Source of the DNA: an uncultured Opitutales bacterium
Lineage (GTDB): Bacteria > Verrucomicrobiota > Verrucomicrobiia > Opitutales > Intestinicryptomonadaceae
Length of the DNA: 64,000 nucleotides
Reading direction: 5' to 3'
NCBI GenBank assembly: GCA_944389195.1
Contig: CALXLM010000023.1
Location: 1-64,000 of the forward strand
The position numbers and the translations under genes are program-made. Under the pieces are notes generated by a model. The model worked only from the letters and a program-made list of their open reading frames with translations, was not told where the DNA came from and did no database searches. Positions 12,327 to 60,053 of this stretch are shown here, piece by piece. Position 1 is the stretch's first letter. Each line of letters opens with the position of its first letter.

Positions 12327-13274
12327 ATGGAAAAGAGCGACAAAATATTCATTGCGGGAGCCAACGGAATGGTTGGATCCGCATTGGCAAGAAAGTTTGC
12401 ATCTGAAGGATACACAAATCTATTGCTTCCTTCGCATTCAACTTTAGATTTGACAAGACAGGAGGAAACCGAGCGTTTTTTTGCTCAAGAGCGCCCCGAT
12501 GTCGCGGTAATAGCTGCCGCGAAAGTCGGTGGAATATATGCGAATGATACTTATCCGGCCGATTTCATATCGATTAATATGCAAATCGCGGTCAATTCTA
12601 TTGTTTCCGCATATAAATCTGGGGTGAAACGCCTACTGTACCTCGGAAGCACGTGCATTTATCCGAAATACGCTTCGCAACCGATAAAAGAAAGCGAACT
12701 GCTCACAGGCGCCCTTGAAAAGACAAACGAGGCATACGCCATTGCGAAAATATCCGGCCTTAAGCTGTGCGAATACTATAGAAAACAATACGGCGTACTT
12801 TACCACTCGGCTATGCCAACAAACCTGTACGGGCCGAATGACAACTACGAAAGCATGAACTCCCATGTTATGCCCGCTCTAATAAGAAAATTCCACGAAG
12901 CGAAAATTAACAACGAGCCTGAAGTTATTTTGTGGGGCACCGGCAATCCGCTTCGGGAATTTCTCCATGTGGACGATCTGGCGTCGGCCTGCCTATGTTT
13001 GCTTAAAATCGACAACCCGCCAAACATCGTGAATCTCGGAAGCGGAGAGGAAGTTTCCATTAAGCAATTAGCGTCAATAATAGCGGATGTGGTGGGATAT
13101 AAGGGAAAAATAAAACACGATTTGTCAAAACCGGACGGTACGCCTAGAAAACTTTGCGATACGACTTTACTGCGTTCGACCGGTTGGACGCCGGAATATA
13201 CGATAAGAAGCGGTATAGAAGCCGCTTACAAGTCTTTTCTTTCCGAAATTGCCTCTCGTAAAATTCGCATTTGA
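12327..13274 (+). CDS. fcl: GDP-L-fucose synthase-like NAD-dependent epimerase/reductase
   Basis: A 315-residue extended SDR. It has the Rossmann motif GANGMVG (11-17), AAAKVGGI (63-70), and the GDP-fucose synthase active-site set: S108 and C110 (LGSTCIYP), Y137-X-X-X-K141 (YAIAK) and H180 (NSHVMP), each one position from the E. coli enzyme. It should convert GDP-4-keto-6-deoxymannose to GDP-L-fucose with NADPH for cell-surface polysaccharide. The partner GMD dehydratase is not in this window. It is the first of three overlapping or close nucleotide-sugar genes. Related GDP-sugars as true substrate cannot be excluded. Confidence 0.82.
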
Positions 13275-13296
13275 ATCCAATAAACAAAATAACGAC

Positions 13297-14628
13297 ATGG
13301 AAAAGGAACCTTTAAAAATAGCCATAGTTGGATTGGGATACGTCGGACTTACATTAGCGGTCTCTTTTGCCAGAAACGGCCTAAAAGTATTCGGCATTGA
13401 AAAACGCAAAGAGGTTGTGGATTTGACGAACAATGGAATCCCGCACTTCTCGGAAGCAGGCTTGGACGCAGCTCTAAAATCCGTTGTGGAAAACGGCACG
13501 CTGCACGCCTACAATGAAATGGAGGAAAAAATCCCCCCATGCGACTTTTATGTGATAACAGTGGGAACCCCATTGCTAAAAGGCACCCACACGCCGCGGC
13601 TTGACATGATACGCCAAGCTACGGAACAAGTAGCTTCACATATGCAGGACGGTGCAACCGTAATTTTGCGCTCGACAGTGCAGATAGGAACGACAAGGAA
13701 TATTGTAAAACCCGTGCTCGACGCCACCGGAAAGCAATATTATTTGGCGATGTGCCCCGAGCGCACATTGGAGGGACGTGCGCTCAGGGAGCTTTCGGAG
13801 TTGCCGCAGATCATAGGTGGCATAGACGGCAAATCTTCAACGGCGGCAAATTCGCTGTTCAGCCTTTCCACAAAGACAACCATTATTGTCTCGTCTCCGG
13901 AAACGGCCGAGATGATAAAGCTTGTCGATAACACTTCAAGGGACGTGCGGTTCGGATTCGCCAACGAAATAGCCAGAGCGTGCGTGGCGCTGGGAATAGA
14001 CGCCTATGAGGTTATCCGCTGCGGTAAAATTGATTATCCCCGAACAAACGTCGCCCTTCCCGGACTCGTAGGAGGCCCCTGTTTGGAAAAAGACCCGCAT
14101 ATTCTTATGTACTCTTTGAAACCGACGGGAATTGAATTGGAAATTACCAAGGCTTCACGGCTTGTAAACGAACGCCAACCCTCCGAAACCGTGGACGAAA
14201 TTGCCAAAATAGCCGCCCAAAAAAACATAAGAAAACCATATACTGTGGCTTTGCTCGGACTGGCATTCAAGGGCGTTCCGGCGACAAACGACCTTCGCGG
14301 CTCCATGTCTTTAAAAATATATGAAGAAATAGAGCGAAGACAAGATTTTGGAAGTGTCAACGGATTCGATCCGGTAATTGGGGCAGACCACCCGCCGGAG
14401 CTGCCTCCAGCCATAAAAATGTTCGACAACATTAAAGATGCAATAAAAGGCGCGGATATCGCAATAATCGCCAACAACCACCCCTTCTTTTCAAAGTTTA
14501 ACATAGACTTTTACAGGGAAAATCTGTCGCCAAACGGTTTTGTTTACGATTATTGGAACAATCTTAATTTCGAAACTTTATCGCATCGAAATCAATTTTA
14601 TTATTCGGTGGGGAACGTATGGGAATAG
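13297..14628 (+). CDS. Nucleotide-sugar dehydrogenase (UDP-ManNAc dehydrogenase-like)
   Basis: A 443-residue UDP-glucose/GDP-mannose dehydrogenase family protein. The ATG at 13297, 22 bases after the previous stop, puts the Rossmann motif VGLGYVG at 11-17. A catalytic Lys in MIKLVDN (K208), and the catalytic Cys in GGPCLEKDPH (C262) are present. The CPER motif (153-156) is characteristic of the UDP-N-acetylmannosamine dehydrogenase branch. It should oxidise C6 of a UDP-sugar to the uronic acid in two NAD+ steps. The C-terminal domain (about 315-443) is complete. It probably supplies a uronic acid for the same polysaccharide as its neighbours. Confidence 0.85.
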   Translation: MEKEPLKIAIVGLGYVGLTLAVSFARNGLKVFGIEKRKEVVDLTNNGIPHFSEAGLDAALKSVVENGTLHAYNEMEEKIPPCDFYVITVGTPLLKGTHTPRLDMIRQATEQVASHMQDGATVILRSTVQIGTTRNIVKPVLDATGKQYYLAMCPERTLEGRALRELSELPQIIGGIDGKSSTAANSLFSLSTKTTIIVSSPETAEMIKLVDNTSRDVRFGFANEIARACVALGIDAYEVIRCGKIDYPRTNVALPGLVGGPCLEKDPHILMYSLKPTGIELEITKASRLVNERQPSETVDEIAKIAAQKNIRKPYTVALLGLAFKGVPATNDLRGSMSLKIYEEIERRQDFGSVNGFDPVIGADHPPELPPAIKMFDNIKDAIKGADIAIIANNHPFFSKFNIDFYRENLSPNGFVYDYWNNLNFETLSHRNQFYYSVGNVWE

Positions 14629-15623
14629 TCGAAAAAAGCGCTGACATGGAAACTGTTGCTATAACCGGGGCTGGCGGCTTTATAGGCGCCTATCTTGTAA
14701 GAAAATTGCTGGAATTAAACTACGGCGTCCGCGCCATAGACAATTTTTCGAGGGGAGATCCTGAACGCCTCAAGTCTATAAAAAATCCCAATTTGACCAT
14801 ATACAAAGCCGACGTAAGGGAGGAAAAAGAATTAATCCCTATTTTTGAGGGTTGTACCGCAGTTTTTCATCTTGCGGCAATAAACGGCACGGAAAACTTT
14901 TACAAACATCCGGACTTGGTTTTGGACGTTGGAGTGCGTGGTATGCTCGCGGTGGCAAACGCCTCATTAAAAACAAAGATAGCCAGCCTTATTGTCGCAT
15001 CGTCTGCCGAAGTTTATCAGACTCCGGCTAAAATTCCCACTGACGAAAATATTGCGCTTACAATTCCCGATTCGTTAAATCCGAGATATTCGTATGGCGG
15101 ATCAAAATTGATTTCAGAATTGATAGCGTTCAATTACTGCGGCAAGGCATTAAAAAAAGTCCAAGTGTTTAGGCCGCACAATGTTTACGGCCCCGACATG
15201 GGGTGGAAACATGTTATACCCCAGCTCATTGAAAAAATTGAACAGTCAGGCGACGGCGAAGAAAGAACAATTTCAATACAGGGTGACGGAACCCAAACCC
15301 GCGCTTTCTGTTATGTTGACGACATTGTTGGCGGAATTATTACAATGTGGCTTAAGGGCGATTCGATGAACGTTTACCACATCGGCGCAATGCGAGAGAT
15401 TTCAATAAAGGAACTCGCCGAAGAAATCGCTAAAATTTACGAAGTTCGGCTGACAATAAATCCCGGTACTCCAAATAAAGGCGAAACGCCGAGGCGCTGC
15501 CCGGATATTTCCAAGATGGCCGCCCTTGGCTATTCGCCAAAAGTTTCTTTAAATGAGGGTCTTAAACGGACAATAGAATGGTATAGACGCCATGCCAAAA
15601 CAAAAGAAAACAGCCTATTGTAA
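14619..15623 (+). CDS. NAD-dependent nucleotide-sugar epimerase/dehydratase
   Basis: A 334-residue extended SDR. The ATG at 14619 overlaps the end of the dehydrogenase gene by 10 bases and has a GGTGGGG site just upstream; an ATG at 14646 is the alternative. It has GAGGFIG, HLAAINGTENF, VASSAEVY, the YSYGGSK active site (Tyr-X-X-X-Lys), RPHNVYGPDM and a C-terminal sugar-binding part. The family epimerises or dehydrates UDP-, CDP- or TDP-sugars. Translational overlap with the UDP-ManNAc dehydrogenase-like gene suggests the two act on linked substrates. Exact reaction unknown. Confidence 0.82.
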   Translation: MGIVEKSADMETVAITGAGGFIGAYLVRKLLELNYGVRAIDNFSRGDPERLKSIKNPNLTIYKADVREEKELIPIFEGCTAVFHLAAINGTENFYKHPDLVLDVGVRGMLAVANASLKTKIASLIVASSAEVYQTPAKIPTDENIALTIPDSLNPRYSYGGSKLISELIAFNYCGKALKKVQVFRPHNVYGPDMGWKHVIPQLIEKIEQSGDGEERTISIQGDGTQTRAFCYVDDIVGGIITMWLKGDSMNVYHIGAMREISIKELAEEIAKIYEVRLTINPGTPNKGETPRRCPDISKMAALGYSPKVSLNEGLKRTIEWYRRHAKTKENSLL

Positions 15624-53432: not shown

Positions 53433-54275
53433 ATGCTTTCAAAATTTCTGCCAGAAGACTTTGACGCATCGGCGAAAATAGCCATTCTTGCCGGCAGGGG
53501 CGTATATCCCTCCATATTGAAGGGGAAGCTGGACTCGCTCGGGATTGCGAACGTTTTGATGGCCTTCGACGGCGAGACCTCCCAAGAGCTCTGGGACAGT
53601 TATCCTCAGTCGGAAAGGTTCAGCGCCGGCGTGGGGCAACTCGGAAAACTTCTTAAAAATTTAAAGACAGCCGGGGCGCGATACGCCATAATGGCGGGGC
53701 AAATAACGCCAAAGAAACTTTTCAAAGGCATGAATCCCGATTTGAAGGCGATTCTTGTGCTCGCCACCCTAAAGCGTAAAAACGCCGAAACTATATTCGG
53801 CGCCGTGGCCGCCCAGCTTGAAAAAATAGGCGTACGTATGCTCGACGCCCGTTCGTTTCTCGACGACAGCCTCGCCCCGCTGGGCTTTTTTAGCGGAAGC
53901 GGGCTTAAAGGAGCGTCGGATTCGCAGGTCGAGCACGCAATGAACATCGCCCGCGAATGCGCGCGCCTCGACATCGGGCAAAGTTGCGTGACTTCCCGCG
54001 GAACAGTATTGGCAGTCGAGGCCTTTGAGGGGACCGACGCCATGATAGAGCGGGCTGGAACGTTTGGGGCAAAAAACTGCGTGTTTGCAAAAACAGTAAA
54101 GCCCAACCAGGACTACCGTTTCGACGTTCCCGTAATCGGCGAGCGCACAATAAGGAAGCTCGCGAATGCGGGGATAAGGAATGTGGTTGTCGAATCCGGA
54201 AAGGTTATAATTCTCGACGCTGAGGCCGTCAGAAAATCCGCCAACGATAACGGCATAAGCATTGTCGGCATTTAA
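53433..54275 (+). CDS. lpxI: UDP-2,3-diacylglucosamine pyrophosphatase LpxI
   Basis: A 280-residue DUF1009/LpxI protein, the alternative to LpxH in lipid A synthesis. It hydrolyses UDP-2,3-diacylglucosamine to lipid X and UMP. Visible features are ILAGRGVYP near the start, MAGQITPKKLF (88-98), VTSRGTVLAVEAFEGTDAMIERAG with the conserved Asp D202 (matching the essential Asp of the Caulobacter enzyme), FAKTVKPNQDYRFDVPVIG, and an end like GISIVGI. Its presence shows that the organism makes lipid A. It starts 9 bases after the FecR-like stop and ends 2 bases before sufE. Confidence 0.92.
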   Translation: MLSKFLPEDFDASAKIAILAGRGVYPSILKGKLDSLGIANVLMAFDGETSQELWDSYPQSERFSAGVGQLGKLLKNLKTAGARYAIMAGQITPKKLFKGMNPDLKAILVLATLKRKNAETIFGAVAAQLEKIGVRMLDARSFLDDSLAPLGFFSGSGLKGASDSQVEHAMNIARECARLDIGQSCVTSRGTVLAVEAFEGTDAMIERAGTFGAKNCVFAKTVKPNQDYRFDVPVIGERTIRKLANAGIRNVVVESGKVIILDAEAVRKSANDNGISIVGI

Positions 54276-56567: not shown

Positions 56568-56598
56568 AAAAAACGCACCTTTCGGGGTGCGTTTTTTT
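56568..56598 (+). terminator. Intrinsic terminator of the exbB-exbD-exbD operon
   Basis: AAAAAACGCACC, a 6-base loop, GGTGCGTTTTTT with further T: a perfect 12-bp paired stem including the A/T tracts, 15 bases past the last stop. Confidence 0.85.
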
Positions 56599-56671: not shown

Positions 56672-57361
56672 ATGAAAGCCAGCGACCTTTTTGATTTACC
56701 CGCGTCACTCGAAAGATTTTCCGAGTTTTTCACTCCCGACATGGCTCCGTGGGAATGGGTAAAGAACATAAAAAACGCCCTATCAAGCGTAGATTTCTCC
56801 TCTCTTGAATCAAAAAAAGACATACCTTCGGGAGTTGAAGTGGAAGAAAACGTCTTCATACACCCCACTGTCTCCCTTCCGCCCTACGCGCACATAAAGG
56901 GGCCCGCATGGATAGGCGCGCACACCGAAATCCGCATAGGCTGTTTCGTCAGGGGCAACGTAATCGTCGGGGAAGGATGCGTAATGGGCAACTCGTGCGA
57001 ATACAAAAACAGCATGCTTATGGACAAGGTTGAAACGCCCCACTATAATTATGTAGGAGACTCTGTTTTGGGGACGCGCTCCCACCTTGGAGCCGGTGTC
57101 ATATGCGCCAATTTGAGGCTCGACCGCAACAACGTTCTGCTCACGCTGCCCGAGGGCCGCATAGATTCCAACATGAGAAAGCTCGGCGCAATGGTTGCAG
57201 AATATGCCGAAGCGGGCTGCAACTCGGTGCTTCAGCCGGGTTCAATATTGATGAAGAGGTCGATAGTGCTCTCTTGCGTAGCATTTAAGGGGTATCTCGA
57301 GGAAAACACAATAACCGGTCCGAAGCTGCAGATGCGGAATCTGCCGCGATTCGGATTCTGA
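56672..57361 (+). CDS. Left-handed beta-helix (hexapeptide) transferase-like protein
   Basis: A 229-residue protein. Residues about 50-205 carry hexapeptide repeats (VEENVFIHPTVSLPPYAHIKGPAWIGAHTEIRIGCFVRGNVIVGEGCVMGN), the left-handed beta-helix of acyltransferases and GlmU-like enzymes. It resembles the C-terminal half of GlmU-like N-acetyltransferases, without the nucleotidyltransferase half. Substrate may be a sugar phosphate or nucleotide sugar. It lies 26 bases upstream of an ArnC-like gene, so a joint role in sugar modification is plausible. Confidence 0.75.
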   Translation: MKASDLFDLPASLERFSEFFTPDMAPWEWVKNIKNALSSVDFSSLESKKDIPSGVEVEENVFIHPTVSLPPYAHIKGPAWIGAHTEIRIGCFVRGNVIVGEGCVMGNSCEYKNSMLMDKVETPHYNYVGDSVLGTRSHLGAGVICANLRLDRNNVLLTLPEGRIDSNMRKLGAMVAEYAEAGCNSVLQPGSILMKRSIVLSCVAFKGYLEENTITGPKLQMRNLPRFGF

Positions 57362-57387
57362 CAATCAAATCAACACCTATAAACGCC

Positions 57388-58332
57388 ATGGACGTATCTG
57401 TCGTAATCCCCGTTTACAACGAAGAGGAAAATCTTCAAAGTCTTTTTGAGAGGCTGTGCCGCACAATGGATTCCATTGGGAAGCCGTGGGAGGTTATATT
57501 TGTAAACGACGGCAGCAAAGACCGATCAGGGGAAATTTTGAGGAGATTCTGCAAAGAGCGCCCCGGAACCGTAAAGCTTATAGATTTCAACGGCAATTAC
57601 GGGCAGCACACGGCAATAATTGCGGCTTTCGAGCGCGCGGCGGGTGAGGTTGTTGTCACGCTCGACGCCGACCTGCAAAATCCCCCGGAGGAAATAGTAA
57701 AGCTTCTGGAAAAAATTGACGAAGGCTGTGACAGCGTGGGGGGCTATCGCAAGCAGCGCGAGGATACCGCATTGCGGCGCTATTGCTCAAAAATCGTCAA
57801 CATAGCCCGGGATAAAATGACGAATATCCGCATGAAAGACCAGGGCTGCATGCTCCGTGCCTACAAGCGCAACGTTATAAAGGCCATTCTCGGAACAAAC
57901 GAGCGTTCCCTTTTCATACCGGCGCTCGCGTACACGTTTTCGTCCAACCCCGCCGAGATAGAGGTCGAGCACGCCGCGCGCGCGGCGGGTGAGTCGAAAT
58001 ACAGCATGTACAGGCTTATCCGCCTGAACTTCGACCTCATCACCGGATTTACGCTTATGCCGCTGCAGCTGTTTACGCTGTTCGGATTCCTTTCCAGTTT
58101 GGGTTCTTTTGCGCTTGTCGCAATACTCCTGTTCAGAAGGTTTTTTATAATCGGCGAAGGCGAGGCGGAGGGGGTATTCACGCTTTTTGCAATACTGTTT
58201 TTCCTGATAAGCGTGGCGATTGTCGGCATAGGTTTGATAGGGGAATATATAGGAAGAATATACCAAGTTGTGCAGTCGCGCCCGAAATATGTTTTAAAAG
58301 AGACTGTTGGATTCGGCGAAGATGGAAAATAA
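57388..58332 (+). CDS. ArnC/GtrB-like polyprenyl-phosphate glycosyltransferase (GT2)
   Basis: A 314-residue membrane GT2. The GT-A domain has VVIPVYNEEENL (5-16), VNDGSKD (39-45) and the metal motif LDADLQNPPEE (D93/D95). Two C-terminal membrane segments (about 230-255 and 265-290) match ArnC, DPM1 and GtrB-type enzymes that load a sugar onto undecaprenyl phosphate at the inner face of the membrane. The downstream gene overlaps its end by 11 bases and encodes an ArnA-like formyltransferase, which points to a 4-formamido-sugar (such as Ara4FN). Other sugars are possible. Confidence 0.85.
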   Translation: MDVSVVIPVYNEEENLQSLFERLCRTMDSIGKPWEVIFVNDGSKDRSGEILRRFCKERPGTVKLIDFNGNYGQHTAIIAAFERAAGEVVVTLDADLQNPPEEIVKLLEKIDEGCDSVGGYRKQREDTALRRYCSKIVNIARDKMTNIRMKDQGCMLRAYKRNVIKAILGTNERSLFIPALAYTFSSNPAEIEVEHAARAAGESKYSMYRLIRLNFDLITGFTLMPLQLFTLFGFLSSLGSFALVAILLFRRFFIIGEGEAEGVFTLFAILFFLISVAIVGIGLIGEYIGRIYQVVQSRPKYVLKETVGFGEDGK

Positions 58333-59188
58333 AGACAAGAAAATCCTTTTTTTCGGGTTTAGCGACGTCGGATACAAATGCCTGAAATACATGGTCGATT
58401 CCGGGTACAATGTGATAGGCGTATTCACCCACGACACCGATCCCCACGAGTCTAAATGGTTTGAATCTCCGGAGTCGCTCGCAAGGGAAAACCTCATACC
58501 CGTATTCAAGCCCGACACGCTAAAAACCGAAAAGTGGTTTCGCAAAGTCAGATACATGAAGCCCGATCTGATACTGTCGCTCTACTACCGCAATATGATA
58601 CCAGAGGAGATTTTCTCGCAGGCCAAATACGGCGCCTACAACATGCACGGCTCCTACCTTCCTTATTACCGCGGAAGGGCGCCGTTAAACTGGGCCATAA
58701 TAAACGGCGAAAAATTCGGGGGGGTTTCCCTTCACGTCATGGAAAAAAAATTCGACACCGGCGCGGTTGTCGACCAGGAAAAAGTCGAATTTGCCGACGA
58801 CGAATACGTTGGGCAGATACAGCCGAGAATCGCCGAAGCCGCCCTTAACGTGTTTAAGCGCTCGCTCGACTCCCTTCTTGACGGAAATCCGAAGACGGTT
58901 CCGCAAGACGCGACAAAAGCGTCGTATTTCGGCAAACGCACCCCTGAAGACGGCAAGATAGACTTCTCCAAAACCGCGCGCGAAGTATTCAATCTCATAC
59001 GCGGAGTAAGCAAGCCGTTCCCCGGGGCATTTGCCGATATCGGAGGAACGGAGACGATTATATGGAGGGCGAAAATAGGCGAAGACTCCCGCGGCATAAG
59101 TGCCGGGACGGTAGTCTCGCTCGATCCCCTGACCGTGGCTTGCGCCGACAAATTTATTGTAGCTGAAGAAACTCAGCCGCGCCGGTAG
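58322..59188 (+). CDS. ArnA-type formyltransferase (aminosugar N-formyltransferase)
   Basis: A 288-residue protein from the ATG at 58322. It resembles the N-terminal formyltransferase of ArnA and methionyl-tRNA formyltransferase. Catalytic residues are N107 and H109 (NMHGSYLPYYRGRAPLNWAI) and D145 (FDTGAVVDQE). A C-terminal OB-like part (about 205-288) follows. It uses N10-formyl-tetrahydrofolate to formylate an aminosugar, a step in Ara4N transfer to lipid A. The second, dehydrogenase half of ArnA is absent. Translation is coupled to the ArnC-like gene. The adjacent tRNA formyltransferase role is unlikely, given the context and GSYLPYYRG. Confidence 0.8.
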   Translation: MENKDKKILFFGFSDVGYKCLKYMVDSGYNVIGVFTHDTDPHESKWFESPESLARENLIPVFKPDTLKTEKWFRKVRYMKPDLILSLYYRNMIPEEIFSQAKYGAYNMHGSYLPYYRGRAPLNWAIINGEKFGGVSLHVMEKKFDTGAVVDQEKVEFADDEYVGQIQPRIAEAALNVFKRSLDSLLDGNPKTVPQDATKASYFGKRTPEDGKIDFSKTAREVFNLIRGVSKPFPGAFADIGGTETIIWRAKIGEDSRGISAGTVVSLDPLTVACADKFIVAEETQPRR

Positions 59189-59245: not shown

Positions 59246-59890
59246 TTAACGCACTTTGCGCATGACCTCCACTCCCATTTTTTCAAATCCGCCCAATATA
59301 TATTCAAAATAAATGCCCCTAAGCGGAATAAATTTAATCATTCTGCAAAATCCGTTTTTCGGATAAATTTTGATATAATTGCCAAATATGCCCCTTTTGG
59401 ACTCTACGCGCAAAATATCGGAAACTCCAAAGATTTGTGACCGGCTGAATGAAAATATCCTCCACCCTATTTCAACTTTTTCGTTTCTAAAATCCAAAAA
59501 TCCCATCGGAAAACTTGCCCCTAAATAATATGGGCCAATCACGCCGGGCAATTCTCTGTAATACGCTCCGACGTAATGCGAGTCGACTCCGGAAGCATTA
59601 AAGCGGAGCAGCAGCCTGAAAAGCGCATAGAAAGCCAGAACCGGCGCCGACGCCGACACGAGCGAAAAAGCCGCCGGAATTAAAGCCACGTTATCGGGCA
59701 AATAGCCGAATTGAACCGCCGCAGCTACCGCGCAGAAAGAATAGGCGCACACTGACAAAAAATAAGTGCCCGCCCACGCGAAATTCGCCAAGACTCCGCC
59801 CGAAAATAATTTCCAATGCGCGGCGCAAAAGAGCGCGGGAAAAACAACTCCCGCAAGAATTACTACTGCAAAAAAATACGCGCTCTCCAT
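59246..59890 (-). CDS. Small membrane protein of unknown function
   Basis: A 214-residue protein from the ATG at 59890; an upstream in-frame start at 60007 is less likely, since it adds a non-hydrophobic tail before the first membrane segment. Segments about 4-24, 32-60 and 70-95 are hydrophobic. Residues about 110-210 are a soluble domain with aromatic/Gly strands (YYRELPGVIGPYYLG, FIPLRGIYFEYILGG), somewhat like a PH-type fold. No family was recognised. It lies between the formyltransferase (convergent) and purL. Confidence 0.55.
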   Translation of the reverse strand: MESAYFFAVVILAGVVFPALFCAAHWKLFSGGVLANFAWAGTYFLSVCAYSFCAVAAAVQFGYLPDNVALIPAAFSLVSASAPVLAFYALFRLLLRFNASGVDSHYVGAYYRELPGVIGPYYLGASFPMGFLDFRNEKVEIGWRIFSFSRSQIFGVSDILRVESKRGIFGNYIKIYPKNGFCRMIKFIPLRGIYFEYILGGFEKMGVEVMRKVR

Positions 59891-60053
59891 ATTGGCATTC
59901 CCAAAGATAAATTGAAAGTCAAAATGCCGTCCGCATTGCACGCCAGAACCTTTTGCCCAAGGTTTTCCTCCCCTATTGAAAAGCGAATGAGGTCTTCCGC
60001 CATTCACGCGCCCGGACCCGCAAAAAATCCGGAACGCGCGCGAACGCGAAAGC

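Follow-up and report, generated by a model that had tools for sequence, protein, structure and literature searches.

What does a pair of overlapping genes for an ArnC-type glycosyltransferase and an ArnA-type formyltransferase do where the genes around it offer no other step of the arn pathway? The question is raised by a 64,000-nucleotide stretch of DNA (the window, positions 1 to 64,000 of contig CALXLM010000023.1) from an uncultured Opitutales bacterium whose assembly (G000; GCA_944389195.1) comprises 2.37 Mb in 55 contigs and is 96% complete. The initial annotation described three open reading frames (ORFs) in which a gene for a hexapeptide (beta-helix) protein precedes a family 2 glycosyltransferase (GT2) gene that overlaps the formyltransferase gene, and this arrangement was confirmed (Table 1). 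It also reported that arnB, arnD, arnT and the dehydrogenase half of arnA are missing from the window, and this holds as well: the gene inventory, which consists of ORF lists read by eye rather than a family scan of the whole window, has none of these genes near the pair, and the whole-genome matches to the four families lie on other contigs, with the exception of a distant dehydrogenase-like window ORF (14619-15623, 48 bits). The pair is most likely part of a nearly complete, dispersed pathway for 4-amino-4-deoxy-L-arabinose (L-Ara4N), a sugar that gives the cell surface positive charge, with a split ArnA, rather than of the reduced or different pathway that had been proposed, and the target of the pathway is most likely lipid A. 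The basis of the dispersed pathway is the presence of the genes, their families, conserved motifs, co-occurrence and linkage in outgroups.

Proteins were compared by bit score with Pfam and NCBIfam models and with solved structures. The GT2 protein has 339.6 bits to the NCBIfam model for ArnC (PRK10714), a score far above chance that does not reach the strict equivalog cut-off of 529. Among solved structures it matches ArnC (9bhc) with 306.9 bits, sll0501, a GtrB structure according to PMC9927302, with 172 bits, and DPMS with 79 bits. E. coli ArnC is 46% identical to it over 305 amino acids and the two have the motifs PVY, YGQ, DAD, DxGC, and RxxGESKY in common; motifs of such kind are described for PmrF (ArnC) and GtrB in that paper. 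By homology and motifs, the GT2 protein is of the ArnC type rather than the GtrB or DPMS type.

The formyltransferase gene begins at an ATG that overlaps the arnC stop by 11 nucleotides, with TTG 58307 as an alternative start. Its product has 327.7 bits to NCBIfam PRK06988 ("formyltransferase"; cut-off 316) and 292 bits to ArnA, while its score on the model for methionyl-tRNA formyltransferase (Fmt), 168.7 bits, is under the cut-off of 201.5; likewise it is 36% identical to residues 2-271 of E. coli ArnA (220 bits) and 28% identical to E. coli Fmt (132 bits). The N-x-H motif of formyltransferases is catalytic, and the stretch NMHGS...YRGRAPLNW of the window protein has its counterpart in ArnA as NLHGS...YRGRAPLNW. 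The ArnA fusion is not present: the protein stops after the formyltransferase, and the dehydrogenase is encoded by a separate gene on contig 48. Nine named loci were matched with the formyltransferase; six are from Verrucomicrobiota with 69-84% identity (four Opitutales, one Puniceicoccaceae, and one named only as Verrucomicrobiota), and the other three, with identity of at most 43%, are from one Sulfurimicrobium and two Lachnospiraceae. The score on the Fmt model could suggest a paralogue acting on Met-tRNA, an outcome for which the initial annotation had allowed; however, that score is below the cut-off, the protein has the ArnA-type YRGRAPLNW stretch, and a separate Fmt gene on contig 2 is above the cut-off (206.8 bits) and clusters with E. 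coli Fmt in a tree. The Fmt candidate was rejected for these three reasons and is highly improbable. The initial annotation was right to name the two genes as an ArnC/ArnA-formyltransferase pair for a formamido-sugar step; the family scores are far above chance.

Table 1. Positions of the gene pair and of neighbouring features in the window.
Feature	Position	Strand	Basis
Putative ArnC-type undecaprenyl-phosphate 4-deoxy-4-formamido-L-arabinose transferase (GT2)	57388..58332	+	homology, motifs
Free-standing ArnA-type formyltransferase, probable UDP-L-Ara4N formyltransferase	58322..59188	+	homology, motifs
Hexapeptide protein (left-handed beta-helix, GlmU-like); adjacent gene that probably lies outside the pathway	56672..57361	+	presence across relatives
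Intrinsic-terminator-like hairpin and T-run, after the second exbD	56573..56598	+	read by eye; absent from the pattern-scan list
LpxI, the UDP-2,3-diacylglucosamine diphosphatase of lipid A synthesis; listed as context	53433..54275	+	Pfam/NCBIfam

Candidates for most of the other steps are present on other contigs. The dehydrogenase gene on contig 48 has arnD directly after it, and its product has 471 bits to ArnA positions 295-648 and 537.9 bits to the NCBIfam model for UDP-4-keto-pentose/UDP-xylose synthase (cut-off 294). Its best solved match is PbgP3 from Burkholderia (3slg, 435 bits), and it has the sequences STSEVYG and GYQDVxxR, as does E. coli ArnA. ArnD has 235.8 bits to NCBIfam ArnD, under the cut-off of 382 but its sole family at E <= 1e-10, and 173.6 bits to solved ArnD. 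Approximately 9 kb from these two genes there is a nucleotide-sugar dehydrogenase that passes the cut-off of the general model; its closest families are UDP-glucose dehydrogenases, whose own cut-offs it does not reach. The ArnT-like protein on contig 20, with 169.5 bits to the ArnT model (cut-off 567) and 134 bits to solved ArnT, is the weakest of the pathway assignments. The surroundings of these genes were also recorded: the ArnT-like gene shares 4 nucleotides with a gene of the VC0807 family (141.7 bits against a cut-off of 65; L030:6589-9113), and on contig 48 efflux-pump-like genes, named by eye as MacA-MacB-TolC type, separate the UDP-glucose-dehydrogenase-like gene from arnD and the dehydrogenase gene (L019:3896-8724).

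Whether these scattered genes belong together was considered across a set of relatives, 54 genomes including the window's own, of which one reads as N and was dropped from the tables, leaving 53 readable genomes. With counts given in the order of both genes, formyltransferase only, other gene only, and neither, the tables are 19, 0, 2, 32 for ArnC; 19, 0, 1, 33 for ArnD; 18, 1, 2, 32 for the dehydrogenase; and 18, 1, 4, 30 for ArnT, all strong associations. In the outgroup genome G052 the genes form a single run on one strand, arnT-arnB-arnC-FT-DH-arnD (FT, formyltransferase; DH, dehydrogenase), while G031 has two runs on one contig, arnT-arnB-arnC and FT-DH-arnD. The window's family is represented by 18 readable genomes, 16 of them formyltransferase-positive; arnC and the formyltransferase gene adjoin at matched places in all 16, and the dehydrogenase gene and arnD adjoin in 12 of the 16, the exceptions being G014, G016, G018, and G005, which has no dehydrogenase match. 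Given the outgroup runs and the neighbouring pairs within the family, an ancestral arn operon probably broke into pairs in this family.

Several points weigh against a dispersed L-Ara4N pathway. The ArnC, ArnD, and ArnT homologues are all under the strict NCBIfam cut-offs. The ArnT-like protein has 28% identity with E. coli ArnT across 355 amino acids, its YFEKP motif has Y in place of the E that is found in the proteins of E. coli, G031, G033, and G052, and four formyltransferase-negative genomes also have ArnT homologues that score 150 bits or more. The genes of the window's genome are unlinked save for two pairs, so membership in the pathway rests on homology and co-occurrence, and most of the formyltransferase-positive genomes are from one genus, so the p-values overstate independence.

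Some of the same observations could be taken as signs of a reduced or different formamido-sugar pathway, in which undecaprenyl phosphate is charged with a formamido sugar other than L-Ara4N or the formyl group is retained: the window alone holds just the pair, the ArnC score is below the strict equivalog cut-off, and no ArnB-clade transaminase was found in the family. However, the genome has the dehydrogenase, ArnD, and ArnT-like genes, which co-occur with the pair, as well as the UDP-glucose-dehydrogenase-like gene; ArnD would strip the formyl group, and the genes form one run in G052. This alternative is improbable. The initial annotation had suggested a genome search for arnB, arnD, arnT, and dehydrogenase genes and had named a full arn operon elsewhere as evidence against its own proposal; the search returned the dehydrogenase, ArnD, and the ArnT-like protein but no ArnB-clade transaminase, and the operon is therefore there in substance, as genes, but not to the letter, since they are scattered and no ArnB was found among them. 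A genuinely reduced pathway is more plausible in another relative, the 1.1 Mb genome G043, which has an ArnC-like protein (L108:3890-4849, 293.8 bits), an ArnT-like protein (233.1 bits), and a long-branch transaminase of the ArnB clade (L102), with no match to an ArnA-type formyltransferase or dehydrogenase.

For the dispersed L-Ara4N pathway, we infer the activities, the substrate, the exchange of ArnB for a WecE-clade enzyme, and the final acceptor as follows. The Ugd-like dehydrogenase would produce UDP-glucuronate, which the free-standing dehydrogenase would convert to UDP-4-keto-pentose, and a transaminase, in this family most likely the WecE-clade enzyme encoded on contig 53, would convert this to UDP-L-Ara4N. 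The window formyltransferase would then produce the formamido form, UDP-L-Ara4FN, and the window ArnC would transfer Ara4FN to undecaprenyl phosphate. ArnD would take the formyl group off, and the ArnT-like transferase would add L-Ara4N to lipid A or another acceptor.

The third step is the one for which the genome offers several candidates. Three DegT-type transaminases (contigs 53, 7, and 26) match the ArnB model over most of its length and one further match is partial (54 bits), but no transaminase of this genome, nor any match in the family, reaches the ArnB cut-off. A tree of 70 rows, including every match of the family to the ArnB model at E <= 1e-30, has an ArnB clade (97/91) that unites E. 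coli ArnB with the ArnB proteins encoded in the linked genes of G031, G033, and G052 and with one more row each from G031 and G043, and no row of the family falls within it. The contig 53 enzyme, which is 49% identical to E. coli WecE and above the NCBIfam WecE cut-off, and its relatives in the family (16 rows from 15 genomes) are instead in a WecE clade (100/100) with the WecE proteins of E. coli, G033, and G052. WecE is above the cut-off in 17 of the 54 genomes, all of them formyltransferase-positive, and a WecE-clade transaminase is carried by 15 of the 16 formyltransferase-positive genomes of the family; the table for formyltransferase and WecE is 17, 2, 0, 34 for genomes and 4, 2, 0, 30 for genera (p = 2.5e-4). 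The usual substrate of WecE is made by RmlB. RmlB is above its cut-off in 20 of the 54 genomes. Among the 17 WecE-positive genomes this is true of G052 alone, and of none of the 15 that belong to the family, the window's own included. In G014 and G016 a WecE-type gene starts 84 and 80 nucleotides, respectively, after the dehydrogenase gene.

As no ArnB-clade enzyme was found in the family, the WecE-type enzyme is the likeliest candidate, and its occurrence in formyltransferase-positive genomes only, the absence of RmlB, the adjacency to the dehydrogenase gene, and the presence of the other transaminase types in arn-negative genomes are the grounds for proposing that it aminates UDP-4-keto-pentose; on balance we lean towards this assignment. 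The family would then have lost ArnB, and a transaminase of the clade known from enterobacterial common antigen would now catalyse that step, while the ancestral arnT-arnB-arnC-FT-DH-arnD operon was split into scattered pairs, a case of non-orthologous replacement within the aminoarabinose pathway that we consider slightly more likely than not. Several observations count against it. RmlB is above the cut-off in only one of the 18 readable genomes of the family, whether or not they have the pathway, and the lack of RmlB in WecE-positive genomes may therefore mark the clade and not the enzyme. The formyltransferase-positive genomes G018 (79% complete) and G031 have no WecE-type gene, and G031 has ArnB-clade enzymes. 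Only four alignment columns separate the WecE-type proteins of the family from the WecE proteins outside it, of which there are three, and these columns reveal no clear switch in specificity. The window's genome is likely to make other 4-keto sugars too, as LegB and GDP-mannose dehydratase are above their cut-offs and a PseB-like dehydratase is below.

A different assignment of this step alone, which leaves the pathway dispersed, is that a transaminase of the contig 7 or contig 26 type aminates and the WecE-type enzyme works elsewhere, for example in a missing LegC step. A legionaminic/sialic-acid-type cluster on contig 48 (L130, 11692-17156) has LegB (502.1 bits, cut-off 475), NeuB (477.3, cut-off 399.65), and NeuC (434.9, cut-off 235.9), together with a PseF-like cytidylyltransferase below its cut-off (160.2 versus 205.7), and no transaminase gene is found among its ORFs, so the WecE-type enzyme could serve there; in G003, moreover, a contig 7-type transaminase is located approximately 1.8 kb upstream of the dehydrogenase gene on the same strand. 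However, G015 and G017, which are arn-negative, have the contig 7 and contig 26 types as well, for which reason neither was favoured as ArnB, and in the arn-positive G001 (96% complete) the transaminases that match ArnB at E <= 1e-30 are of the WecE type and the contig 26 type only, while the WecE type adjoins the dehydrogenase gene in two genomes and is above its cut-off only with the formyltransferase. We regard this assignment as a real but less probable possibility. The transaminases of G004 and G013 (276-290 bits to the ArnB model) were rejected as ArnB, being above the PseC cut-off and beside PseB; the G004 locus also has PseF above the cut-off. In the tree, no branch length separates a WecE-type fragment of G011 (L098) from the G012 gene (L076), although G011 has a full copy of its own; the fragment is possibly cross-contamination between bins.

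L-Ara4N modification and split ArnA are already known, and the proposed pathway can be compared with described systems. As with E. coli arnBCADTEF, the genome has homologues of ArnC, both halves of ArnA, and ArnD, a weak homologue of ArnT, and a Ugd-like protein; unlike in E. coli, ArnA is two genes, the pathway is spread over several loci, and no ArnB-clade transaminase was found in the family. According to PMC12650200, separate dehydrogenase and formyltransferase genes are the rule: of 1299 species with both, 39 have them fused, and every one of the 39 belongs to Pseudomonadota, so a split ArnA is in itself ordinary. The window's genome is like those species in its split ArnA, a dehydrogenase with PbgP3 as best solved match, and a formyltransferase above the PRK06988 cut-off, but its two halves are moreover on different contigs. 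The contig 53 enzyme is like E. coli WecE (dTDP-4-dehydro-6-deoxy-D-glucose transaminase) in clade and score, but no RmlB above the cut-off accompanies it in this genome or in the 14 other WecE-positive genomes of the family. A literature search on lipid A sugars of Verrucomicrobia, Opitutales, and Akkermansia, on a WecE/ArnB exchange, on split ArnA, and on ArnC found, among the papers listed, nothing on the subject in the Opitutales group, including no dispersed pathway with a WecE-clade enzyme for ArnB; subscription journals were mostly outside this search, which makes it weak evidence of absence.

The hexapeptide protein, which the initial annotation counted as part of the system, is present in 48 of the 54 relatives searched (E <= 1e-20). 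Of the readable genomes, 18 of the 19 with the formyltransferase and 30 of the 34 that lack it have the protein (18, 1, 30, 4), which shows no association with the formyltransferase (p = 0.64); because it is common throughout the order regardless of the pathway, it was rejected as a component. The terminator-like hairpin stands between exbB-exbD-exbD and the hexapeptide-arnC-FT genes. The LpxI ORF has 143.5 bits to Pfam LpxI_C, 83.6 to LpxI_N, and 151.6 to NCBIfam LpxI, under the cut-off of 400. On the minus strand after the pair (59246-60007) there is a 253-amino acid protein with no Pfam match at E <= 0.01; a protein at the equivalent place in locus L010 is weakly related to it (30%, 59 bits). 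A second sugar-nucleotide cluster in the window (12327-15623) has in a row a GDP-fucose synthase (450.5 bits, under the cut-off of 500), a nucleotide-sugar-dehydrogenase-like ORF, named by eye, and an epimerase/dehydratase-like ORF. The window has no Rfam match that reaches the gathering thresholds, and a pattern scan for promoters and terminators gave counts at the shuffle level.

Modification with L-Ara4N makes lipid A less negatively charged, and in Proteobacteria it is a classic source of tolerance to polymyxin and cationic peptides. If a near-complete pathway is present in Opitutales (Verrucomicrobiota), these bacteria may have built-in tolerance to cationic peptides. Searches based on operons could then miss the pathway, because its genes lie apart and another enzyme apparently stands in for ArnB, and the proposal of WecE for ArnB provides a concrete, testable case of enzyme replacement.

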